This document shows, piece after piece, positions 18,660-35,519 of a stretch of 64,000 nt of DNA (the stretch's first letter is position 1; every line of letters starts with the position of its first letter). The DNA comes from Aminivibrio pyruvatiphilus. Its GTDB lineage: Bacteria; Synergistota; Synergistia; Synergistales; Aminobacteriaceae. A program made the translations under genes and the position numbers. The notes beneath the pieces are model-generated. The model had not been told where the DNA came from. It made no database searches and saw only the letters and a list, made by a program, of their open reading frames with translations. The stretch is taken from NCBI RefSeq assembly GCF_004366815.1, contig NZ_SORI01000001.1, positions 186,001-250,000 of the forward strand, written 5' to 3'.

Positions 18660-19391
18660 TCAGCCTCCTTTGTTTTCGGAGAGGGCTTTTCTCTTCTCCT
18701 CGAGAAGGGGTTTCAGCCGTTCTCCCTTGACCATGAAGAATACCCGTTCCGCCACGTTGGTGGCGTGATCGCCTATCCTGGCGAGATGCCGCGCCACCCA
18801 GAGAAGCCCGGCGGCGCACTGGGCGGTGGCCTGGTCTCCCTCGGGCTTGTTGCCTATGATGAGAAGAAGTTCGTCGAAAATGTTCTCGTAGAGGATATCA
18901 AGCTCCTCGTCCCTGAAGCAGATGCCCTCGGCAAGGGCGGTGTCGTTCTCTTCGAAGGCCTTGAGGGAATCGGCCACCATCTCGGTGGCGATGACCTTCA
19001 TCTTCGGTATGTCCACCAGGGGCTTCAGAAGAGGATACCGGTTCAGGACCTTCGCCTTTTTCGCGATGTTCACGCCCTGGTCGCCGATGCGTTCAAGGTC
19101 GGTGATGATCTTCAGGACGGCGAAGACGAACCTGAGATCCTCCCGGACGGGCTGACGCATGGCAATGGAGCTGAGGCACTCCTGGTCGATGGATGCCTCG
19201 AGATCATCTATGGCGTCGTCCGACCGGATGACTTCGTCCGCCAGGGCGTCGTTCCGCTCTTCCAGCGAGCGGACGGCGCTGGAGAAGGCCCCGCTCGCCA
19301 TGGACCCCATCTCGCGGACCATGGAAAGGATTTTCGCCCTATCGGCAGAATACAGAAGGGATTCAACCTTCCCGTTTTTCTTCCAGAACAT
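18660..19391 (-). CDS. phoU: PhoU-domain protein
   Basis: A 243-residue cytoplasmic protein with two PhoU three-helix repeats (about 12-105 and 118-215) carrying the metal-ligand pattern: DLERIGDQGVNIA in the first and HLARIGDHATNVAE in the second. PhoU restrains phosphate import and the PhoR kinase. Here it is unusual in having no pst or pho genes nearby, lying instead directly before tctCBA; it could have been recruited as a regulator of a transporter, but that is speculation. A candidate promoter and inverted repeats lie upstream. Confidence 0.9.
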   Translation of the reverse strand: MFWKKNGKVESLLYSADRAKILSMVREMGSMASGAFSSAVRSLEERNDALADEVIRSDDAIDDLEASIDQECLSSIAMRQPVREDLRFVFAVLKIITDLERIGDQGVNIAKKAKVLNRYPLLKPLVDIPKMKVIATEMVADSLKAFEENDTALAEGICFRDEELDILYENIFDELLLIIGNKPEGDQATAQCAAGLLWVARHLARIGDHATNVAERVFFMVKGERLKPLLEEKRKALSENKGG

Positions 19392-19501: not shown

Positions 19502-19529
19502 GTTACAGGCGTGTAACGATAATGTTACA
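19502..19529. promoter_or_regulatory. Three alternating GTTACA/TGTAAC half-sites upstream of phoU
   Basis: GTTACA at 19502-19507, TGTAAC at 19512-19517 and GTTACA at 19524-19529 form two overlapping perfect inverted repeats with gaps of 4 and 6 bases. The TTACA-type hexamers recall PhoP/PhoB half-sites, although those are normally direct repeats at 11-bp spacing. They sit immediately downstream of the candidate phoU promoter. Confidence 0.45.
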
Positions 19530-19557
19530 AACTACGACATACCGGGAAGATTGTCAA
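19529..19557 (-). promoter_or_regulatory. Candidate phoU promoter
   Basis: On the minus strand TTGACA (19557-19552) is followed after 17 bases by TAGTTT (19534-19529). The -35 is perfect and the -10 is weak. Confidence 0.4.
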
Positions 19558-19570
19558 GAAGCGGATCCCT

Positions 19571-19783
19571 GCCTAAATCCGCAGCTTTTCCTGGCAGAGG
19601 GAGTGTCGCCGGGCATAAGGTGAATTCGCCCCCAGGGGCGAAGAGATGATCCCCTGGGGGACAGCGCCCGGACCGAGAAACCGACATGGATGTCGGTTTC
19701 AGGTGCAGTTGTCAAGGATGACAATCTGCACCGACGGCCCAAGCGAGCACCGGTGACGCTCCCCGCTGCCTGCGGATTTAGGC
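19571..19783. repeat. 213-bp foldable element with 14-bp perfect terminal inverted repeats (candidate ncRNA or MITE)
   Basis: The arm GCCTAAATCCGCAG (19571-19584) is exactly inverted at 19770-19783. Inside it, GGCAG and GGGAGTGTC (19593-19607) pair with 19755-19770 (one wobble pair). Three further hairpins lie within: TTCGCCCC/GGGGCGAA at 19625-19642 (or, alternatively, 19629-19638 with 19651-19660), a 10-bp stem at 19677-19700 and an imperfect 13-bp stem at 19702-19732. No coding frame is plausible. The multi-branched design suggests either a structured RNA or a miniature inverted-repeat element; CCT flanks both ends. Confidence 0.6.
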
Positions 19784-19818
19784 CCTGATTTTCCTGAGGC
19801 GGAGGGTTAACCTCCCGG

Positions 19819-19902: not shown

Positions 19903-20667
19903 ATGAAAAGAATGTTCGTGCGGTGCGTCATAAAGGGAAAAAGGGAAACGGGCCTGGTGGAGAACGGCATTATTTACCGCCTGGAAGGGGATATGTTCGG
20001 TGAATATACCCGGGGGCCCGCCCTCGGGTCAGTGGACGAAGCCGAGCATTTCCTTCCCCCCGTGGAGCCGTCCAAGGTCGCCGCGGTGGGACTCAACTAC
20101 AGGGACCACGCCATTGAGGTGGGGCTTCCCATCCCCGGGGAACCCCTCCTGTTCCTGAAGCCTTCCACCACGGTCATCGCCCACGGAGATCCCGTGGTCT
20201 ACCCCGGGCACATGTCGGAGCGGGTGGACTACGAGGCCGAGCTCGCCGTCGTCATAGGAAGAAAGTGCTCCTCCGTGGAGCCCGGTGAGACAAAGGACTG
20301 CATCCTGGGCTACACCTGCGCCAACGACGTTACGGCCCGGGATCTCCAGTCCAGGGACGGCCAGTGGACCCGGTCCAAGTCCTTCGACACCTTCTGCCCC
20401 CTGGGACCGTGGATCGTCGCCGGCATCGACCCCGCCGATCTCGAAATAGGCATGTTCCTCAACGGGAAACAGGTCCAGCACTCCAGGACCAGCAACTTCA
20501 TCTTTCCCGTGGACATTCTGGTAAGCCACATCTCGAAAGTCATGACCCTTCTGCCGGGCGACGTGATCATCACCGGCACCCCGTCCGGCATTGGCCCGGT
20601 GAAAAGGGGAGATGTCATGCAGGTGAAGATCGAAGGGATCGGGACCCTGGAAAACGTGGTGGAGTAG
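19903..20667 (+). CDS. Fumarylacetoacetate hydrolase (FAH) family protein
   Basis: A 254-residue single-domain FAH-superfamily enzyme. Visible family residues are GLNYRDHAIE near residue 62, the metal ligands Glu/Glu/Asp in the DYEAELAVVIG and ANDVTARDLQ blocks, KSFDTFCPLGP, and the C-terminal GDVIITGTPSGIG. Members hydrolyse or decarboxylate diketo acids (acylpyruvases, oxaloacetate decarboxylases, 2-hydroxyhepta-dienedioate isomerases); the precise substrate is open. The ATG at 19903 follows GGAGGAG; the frame is open from 19855. Single-gene unit ending at a hairpin. Confidence 0.9.
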   Translation: MKRMFVRCVIKGKRETGLVENGIIYRLEGDMFGEYTRGPALGSVDEAEHFLPPVEPSKVAAVGLNYRDHAIEVGLPIPGEPLLFLKPSTTVIAHGDPVVYPGHMSERVDYEAELAVVIGRKCSSVEPGETKDCILGYTCANDVTARDLQSRDGQWTRSKSFDTFCPLGPWIVAGIDPADLEIGMFLNGKQVQHSRTSNFIFPVDILVSHISKVMTLLPGDVIITGTPSGIGPVKRGDVMQVKIEGIGTLENVVE

Positions 20668-20777: not shown

Positions 20778-20863
20778 TGGCGGAGGGCAGAGGATTCGAA
20801 CCCCTGGGGCTTTCGCCCAGCTGATTTCAAGTCAGCCACCATAGACCACTCGGACAGCCCTCC
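20778..20863 (-). tRNA. tRNA-Ser (anticodon UGA)
   Basis: On the minus strand the 7-bp acceptor stem GGAGGGC/GCCCTCC, the anticodon arm GCTGACTTGAAATCAGC with anticodon TGA, a long variable arm (class II, serine type) closed by GGGC/GCCC, and the T loop GGTTCGAATCC are all present. CCA is encoded at 20780-20778. It reads UCA/UCG-type serine codons. Confidence 0.97.
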
Positions 20864-34074: not shown

Positions 34075-35401
34075 CCGTACCGTATCCGTGGTCGGCGGAG
34101 GGCTTGCCGGGTCCGAAGCGGCCTGGATGCTCGCATGCCGGGGAATCCCCGTAACCCTGTACGAGATGCGCCCCCAGGCCACGACGCCGGCCCACAGGAC
34201 GGACGGACTGGCGGAGGTGGTCTGCAGCAATTCCTTCGGGGCCGATTCCACCACCAGCCCTGCAGGGATTCTGAAGGAGGAGCTCCGCGGCCTCGGCAGC
34301 CTCATCCTGAAGTGTGCCGACGCCGCCCGGGTGCCTGCCGGGAAGGCCCTCGCCGTGGACAGGGACATCTTTTCCCGGCTGGTGACGGAGACCCTGGAGA
34401 AACATCCCCTCGTCACCGTGGTCAGAGAGGAATGCGTCTCCGTTCCGGAAGGGCCGGCGATCCTTGCCACGGGCCCTCTGACCTCGCCCGCCATGGCCGG
34501 GGAGATCCGCAGGATGGCCGGGGAGGAATACCTTTCCTTCTTCGATGCCGTCGCCCCGGTGGTGGAGGCGGACTCCATCGACATGACGAAGGCATTCCGC
34601 CTCGGCCGGTGGGGGCAGGAGGACGATTACATCAACTGTCCCTTCACCCGGGAGGAATACGAAGCCTTTATTTCCGCCCTGACCGGCGCCGAAAGAACCC
34701 TTCCCCACGATTTCGAGGACTCGCCCTCCTGGTTCGAGGGGTGCCTTCCCGTGGAGGTTATGGCCTCCCGGGGAACGGACACCCTCCGGTTCGGCCCCCT
34801 GCGGCCCGTGGGCCTTCCCCTCCCCGGAACGGGGGAAGAAGCCTGGGCAGTGGCCCAGCTCCGGCAGGACAACAGGGAAGGTACCCTCTACAATCTCGTA
34901 GGGTTCCAGACCAGCCTCCGGTGGGGCGAGCAGGAGCGGGTCTTCCGGATGATCCCGGGACTTGCCGATGCGGAATTCGCCCGCTTCGGCGTCATGCACC
35001 GGAACATCTACGTCAACGCCCCGGCAGTGCTGGACGGCCGTCTCCGGTTCCGGAACGGCCGGGAGGATCTCTTCCTGGCGGGTCAGATCACAGGCGTGGA
35101 AGGGTACATGGAAAGCACCGCCATGGGGTGCGTCGCGGCCCTCAACATGGCCGCCCTGCTCCTCGGAAAGCCGTTTCCCGAGTGGCCCCGGGAAACGGCC
35201 GCCGGTTCTCTCCTTCACTACCTGGGAGACGCCCTGGAGCGCCGTTTCCAGCCCATGAACGTCAACCTCGGCATCTTCCCCCCCCTGGGGAAAAAAGTCA
35301 GGAACAAGGCCCTGCGGTGCGAACAGGTCGCCCAGCGCGCACGGGAGGCCTTTGATCCCTTCCTTGCGGGCCTGGCGGAACTCGCGGGACCTGCCAGATA
35401 G
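34067..35401 (+). CDS. trmFO: tRNA (uracil-5-)-methyltransferase, folate/FAD-dependent (TrmFO)
   Basis: A 444-residue flavoprotein that makes m5U54 in the tRNA T loop using methylene-tetrahydrofolate. It has the N-terminal FAD motif VVGGGLAGSEAAW, RPQATTPAHRTD and EVVCSNSFGAD near residues 30-60, and the C-terminal GQITGVEGYMESTAMG. The active-site Cys lies in VCSNSF. ATG overlapping topA. Full length. The topA-trmFO-xerC-hslVU-codY order is the Bacillus order. About 160 AT-rich bases follow before xerC. Confidence 0.95.
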   Translation: MTDRTVSVVGGGLAGSEAAWMLACRGIPVTLYEMRPQATTPAHRTDGLAEVVCSNSFGADSTTSPAGILKEELRGLGSLILKCADAARVPAGKALAVDRDIFSRLVTETLEKHPLVTVVREECVSVPEGPAILATGPLTSPAMAGEIRRMAGEEYLSFFDAVAPVVEADSIDMTKAFRLGRWGQEDDYINCPFTREEYEAFISALTGAERTLPHDFEDSPSWFEGCLPVEVMASRGTDTLRFGPLRPVGLPLPGTGEEAWAVAQLRQDNREGTLYNLVGFQTSLRWGEQERVFRMIPGLADAEFARFGVMHRNIYVNAPAVLDGRLRFRNGREDLFLAGQITGVEGYMESTAMGCVAALNMAALLLGKPFPEWPRETAAGSLLHYLGDALERRFQPMNVNLGIFPPLGKKVRNKALRCEQVAQRAREAFDPFLAGLAELAGPAR

Positions 35402-35519
35402 CTCCACTTCCGATTTTTCTCTTAATTTTCTCTCCCAAAAGATGGGAAAAAAGAGATGCAGGAAAGAAAAACTCCGGTCAGGGACAGATTTTACATCACT
35501 GCCGAAAAAACATTAATTG

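Follow-up and report, generated by a model that had tools for sequence, protein, structure and literature searches.

A modular, BOX-like family of miniature inverted-repeat elements with IS1380-type ends in Aminivibrio pyruvatiphilus and its sister species

Several kinds of short repeated elements in bacteria provide a basis for understanding the locus described here. Nezha and the ISNpu3-like elements are bacterial MITEs that are moved in trans by resident insertion sequences (IS), and the BOX elements of Streptococcus pneumoniae and S. suis are composite repeats built of outer and inner modules (PMC3049150). TIMEs are non-autonomous miniature elements derived from Tn3, which form mosaics and have ends of 38 bp (PMC4133298). 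For the transposition of ISEcp1, a member of the IS1380 family, direct repeats of 5 bp have been reported (PMC2887853). A full-text literature search, which was not exhaustive, found no paper joining Synergistetes and MITEs. It also revealed no obvious MITE family driven by IS1380, the IS1380 papers being assessed mainly by title and abstract.

The element analyzed in this study lies in a window of 64,000 nucleotides from the genome of A. pyruvatiphilus. A first-pass annotation, made from the sequence alone, had proposed two possible identities for it, a structured RNA of a new type and a MITE. The latter is borne out by its copies, terminal inverted repeats (TIRs), 5-bp duplications, empty sites and IS-shared ends. 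We consider it very probable that the element is a non-autonomous MITE with optional hairpin modules, which would be moved in trans by an IS1380-type transposase with a 5-bp target duplication. It represents a new family of MITEs, one that combines ends of the IS1380 type with a modular interior reminiscent of BOX, and not a new class of functional RNA.

The element at the window locus and its modular anatomy

The window copy is located between the divergent phoU and FAA-hydrolase-family genes, upstream of both (Table 1). The 14-bp perfect inverted repeat noted at first pass was found at 19571-19584/19770-19783. The TIR of the mobile unit is only 13 bp, because the bases of the 14th pair (G19571/C19783) both belong to the target duplication and their pairing is fortuitous. 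The length of the unit is accordingly 211 bp and not 213 bp, and the proposed 3-bp CCT duplication gives way to one of 5 bp, CCCTG, on both sides. The internal hairpins and the long imperfect second helix were confirmed in the sequence and by RNA folding. The folding energy was −126.2 kcal/mol (z = −10.0) for the plus strand and −130.6 kcal/mol (z = −10.7) for the minus strand, and none of the 200 shuffled sequences used for comparison was as stable as the element. The statement that it has no coding frame was right in substance: mechanical open reading frames cross the element, but it is intergenic.

Table 1. Features of the window copy and its neighboring genes
Feature	Position	Strand	Remarks
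phoU (neighbor, outside the element)	18660..19391	−	Pfam PhoU, 166 bits
Left target-site duplication, CCCTG	19567..19571	none	one copy, TCCTG, at the unoccupied G001 site
Whole MITE copy, 211 bp, module type A+B+C	19572..19782	+	
Left TIR CCTAAATCCGCAG, 13 bp	19572..19584	+	same sequence as the right IS1380-family end present at contig ends of the own genome
Left subterminal arm GGCAGAGGGAGTGTCGCCGGGCA of the long imperfect second helix	19593..19615	+	
Module A	19616..19661	+	hairpins TTCGCCCC/GGGGCGAA or CCCCCAGGGG/CCCCTGGGGG
Module B, hairpin GAAACCGACAT/ATGTCGGTTTC	19677..19700	+	
Module C, hairpin GGTGCAGTTGTCA..TGACAATCTGCACC	19702..19732	+	
Right subterminal arm	19747..19769	+	partner of 19593-19615
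Right TIR CTGCGGATTTAGG, 13 bp	19770..19782	+	perfect with the left TIR
Right target-site duplication, CCCTG	19783..19787	none	
Fumarylacetoacetate-hydrolase-family gene (neighbor, outside the element)	19903..20667	+	Pfam FAA_hydrolase, 231.6 bits

An Rfam scan, which had been suggested as a check, matched no known family in the element at gathering thresholds; the whole window gave a single match, to a tRNA gene (20781-20863, minus strand). An imperfect palindrome, TGTAACGATAATGTTACA, lies about 70 bp to the left of the element (near 19511-19530), upstream of phoU, and is kept in both sister species; it is a possible operator.

Inside the TIRs, the arms GGCAGAGGGAGTGTCGCCGG and CACCGGTGACGCTCCCCGCTGCC base-pair with each other and enclose the modules. 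Modules A (46-48 nt), B and C are present or absent at fixed points between the arms, some copies have a module D between B and C, and modules may also be shuffled or in tandem. Thus the outer modules enclose from zero to seven A units together with optional B, C and D, which is a BOX-type trait. The 165-bp copies contain B and C without A, two copies contain A alone (L025 and L028), two contain no module (L033 and L034), and three have the order A+B+D+C (L013, L014 and L021), one of which (L021) carries a further hairpin nested within module A. The upper limit of the range is set by L027, with seven A units in tandem, and other combinations are found in copies of the sister species G002 (L167, L171 and L172).

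Compensatory changes were seen in hairpin C (U-A to C-G) and in module A (C-G to A-U). The central stem is GGGCC/GGCCC, versus GGGGGAG/CCCCCC in some G002 copies, and one copy (L111) is chimeric, with one side from each type. The covariance analysis of homologues proposed at first pass gave a covariation term of −0.17 kcal/mol, which is nearly nil, with double changes at 5 of 45 pairs; we therefore make no claim that covariation supports an RNA. The gain, loss and multiplication of modules probably occur through slippage, template switching and recombination among copies. As a result of this turnover the copies span 89-446 bp, yet most of them still fold as a single closed branched structure.

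Copies, insertion sites and the partner insertion sequence

The search for copies was extended from the own genome (G000; 3.35 Mb in 62 contigs) to related genomes, including those of two sister species (G001 and G002, both Synergistaceae MAGs), and many copies were found, as the first-pass annotation had thought worth checking. In the own genome, BLAST with the element returned 52 matching segments distributed over about 34 places, and several of these were full length and more than 94% identical. Each sister species gave at least 19 matches. A covariance model of the core located 28 places in G000, 19 in G001 and at least 41 in G002, and, among 83 genomes of the family, one in another genus (G062). 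A scan with the element pattern matched Synergistaceae MAGs, chiefly LM3-B4.3, and no relatives were found in plasmid and phage searches. None of these copies, 89-446 bp in length, contains a coding gene.

Single module-A-like hairpins occur in other genera of the phylum (L153 in G013, L154 in G036 and L155 in G168), and that of G013 sits within a different palindrome. We considered whether module A might be a repeat in its own right in these genera and rejected the idea, since only such single weak or odd copies were found. The module-A matches L161 and L163 are similar to each other, probably lie within a gene and were taken as chance.

Genes around 30 copies were called with a home-made hexamer-based caller in place of a standard annotation program, and nearly all of these copies were intergenic: 14 lie between tandem genes, 11 between divergent and 2 between convergent ones, 2 are at contig ends, and 1 is over a weak open reading frame. 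No orientation bias of the kind expected for an RNA role was evident among these 30 copies. The divergent genes at the window locus, the occurrence of copies in all orientations and the variable insertion state between species argue against a structured RNA as the primary identity of the element.

The mobility of the element is indicated by its flanks. Identical 5-bp flanks were found in 38 of the 59 TIR pairings scanned, a set that includes several mis-pairings of neighboring ends, whereas left and right flanks taken from different copies were identical in only 10 of 3422 combinations (0.3%). When the joined flanks of copies were searched against the sister genomes, the window copy was found to be missing from G001, where the empty site reads GATTCCTG followed directly by ATTTTC and holds one target copy. 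The L010 locus is empty in both sister species and the L023 locus in G002, again with one target copy each. Insertion state varies between sister species at many sites. In G002, the locus of the window copy carries an A+B+D+C copy (L139), no more than about one base away from the insertion point of the window copy. Either L139 inserted independently at a preferred target, or the insertion is old and G001 has lost it.

The flanks of L023 (G000:C12:15899-16059, compared with G002:C22:38894-39075) are 100% identical over 200 bp, while most other flanks differ between species by several percent or more; a recent exchange is possible.

The ends of the MITE (CCTAAATCCGCAC/CCTAAATCCGCAG) also recur at contig breaks of the own genome: many contigs terminate within a repeated insertion sequence that bears the 13-bp MITE end. 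A complete IS copy of 1912 bp was found in G002 (L103, 572-2483), with the ends CCTAAATCCACA.../...CTGCGGATTTGGG, which are nearly those of the MITE, and the duplication CGGTC on both sides. Its transposase scored 63.8 bits against Pfam DDE_Tnp_1_4 (PF13701; cut-off 34.7) and 174.2 bits against NCBIfam IS1380 (NF033539), just under the cut-off of 180. Target duplications in the IS1380 family are normally 4-5 bp, and the partner IS combines a DDE transposase and short TIRs with a 5-bp duplication, as expected of this family. A family HMM search detected no transposase in the 62-contig assembly of the own genome, and no intact gene was seen there, a result most likely due to contigs ending inside the IS. 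In four cases (L025, L033, L103 and L104) the MITE adjoins an IS1380-family IS with a single 5-bp duplication in between, suggesting insertion at or beside each other's ends.

Nothing substantial is common to MITE and IS beyond the 13-bp ends, which rules out an internal deletion derivative of the IS. Since the likeness is limited to the ends, mobilization in trans would be the natural reading. The element is shorter than about 500 bp, lacks a transposase gene, is multicopy and dispersed, shares its TIRs with a resident IS, and shows target duplications and empty sites, all of which are properties of MITEs. We propose that an IS1380-family transposase encoded elsewhere in the genome recognizes the 13-bp ends, excises or copies the MITE, and inserts it in trans with duplication of 5 bp of the target.

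Conservation of the core and alternative readings

The strong predicted fold and the position upstream of two genes might suggest an already known non-coding RNA, or else a regulatory RNA that occurs only once and belongs to the phoU/FAA-hydrolase region. This is hardly credible, given the absence of any Rfam match at gathering thresholds and the presence of nearly identical copies elsewhere, and as a primary identity the single-copy RNA is ruled out by those copies together with the empty site in G001.

The copies without terminal repeats call for more attention. The own genome contains seven core copies without clear TIRs, and L026, L029, L030, L031 and L032 constitute a subfamily that has a hairpin C of the type GGCGCAG..GTGCGCC and lacks IS1380-type TIRs. 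In the alignment of these five copies the cores are 86-90% identical to the consensus, while the best TIR match is at random level; the values for the right TIR are uninformative here, since the core range used takes in the first base of that TIR. A further copy, L024, has a partial left TIR (9/13), and its TIR has been lost by decay, because the G002 orthologue still has a clear one (CCTAAATCCGCAGG). Between L024 and its TIR-decayed orthologue in G001 (L101), we counted 0 changes in 128 core positions, compared with 61 in 600 flank positions (about 10%) and 9 in 60 TIR or spacer positions. The invariant core columns include unpaired bases, e.g., most of CCCAAGCGAGCA.

These observations, together with the few compensatory pair changes, could be explained if the core (the arms with hairpins B and C) were a functional structured RNA or 3′-UTR element, an exapted MITE whose TIRs decay while selection preserves the folded core in its hosts. 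We regard this explanation as rather unlikely, since covariation is nearly nil, copies stand in all gene orientations, and many insertion sites differ between the sister species. Unlikely as well is its fuller form, according to which the core would be a host-adopted RNA or regulatory element that was spread by IS1380-type transposition and selected after end decay, with the modules as interchangeable functional cassettes. The conservation of the core could reflect selection, gene conversion between copies, or both. Two loci shared between G000 and G001 hold copies in opposite orientation (L030/L092 and L035/L093), which suggests ectopic recombination and could also result from independent insertions, and such recombination, to which the chimeras also point, would be able to homogenize cores. 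We tentatively favor gene conversion because chimeric copies exist.

Two copies of the TIR-less subfamily, L026 (G000:C1:~130076-130206) and L032 (G000:C5:~35308-35438), have empty sites in sister species and are located at or beside apparent terminator T-runs, with no clear 5-bp duplication. The proposed mechanism therefore leaves some copies unexplained. The core might instead be the older entity, a mobile or recombining unit that moves in an unrelated way of its own and of which one lineage later gained IS1380-type ends, an idea consistent with the subfamily as a whole and with these two sites. However, no consistent alternative ends are visible among the TIR-less copies, and L024 shows that a TIR can be lost by decay, which makes an older unit of this kind quite improbable. 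We thus retain the MITE with IS1380-type ends as the identity of the element.

Relationship to known systems

If this reading is true, the family provides a further bacterial miniature repeat with interchangeable hairpin modules besides the streptococcal BOX, and in this case both the target duplication and a likely transposase partner can be seen. The filled, empty and decayed sites of the three sister species offer a usable system for studying the gain and loss of hairpins and the retention of the core by the host.

Like Nezha and the ISNpu3-like MITEs, the element is short, non-coding, multicopy and intergenic, has a strong fold, shares its TIRs with an IS and generates target duplications. 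It differs from them in its G+C-rich hairpins, IS1380-type ends, 5-bp duplications and modular structure, and in that its likeness to the IS is confined to the 13-bp ends. With TIMEs it has in common that it is a non-autonomous miniature element forming mosaics, but the transposon family, the length of the ends and the interior are different. The ends of ISEcp1 start with CCTA. The element resembles this IS1380-family IS in its CCTA-starting ends and 5-bp duplication, and a transposase of the family is present in a sister genome; unlike an IS of this family, it is a MITE with neither a transposase gene nor an IS-derived interior.

The organization resembles that of BOX in that outer modules surround inner hairpin modules, which vary in number and may stand in tandem arrays, the entire element forms one branched fold, and alternative inner modules exist. 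In contrast to BOX, it occurs in a Synergistaceae host, has four unrelated-looking modules (A-D) that are mostly used once, and shows clear IS1380-type TIRs with 5-bp duplications. The resemblance to BOX, as we read it, concerns organization and not ancestry, and we make no claim of BOX membership.
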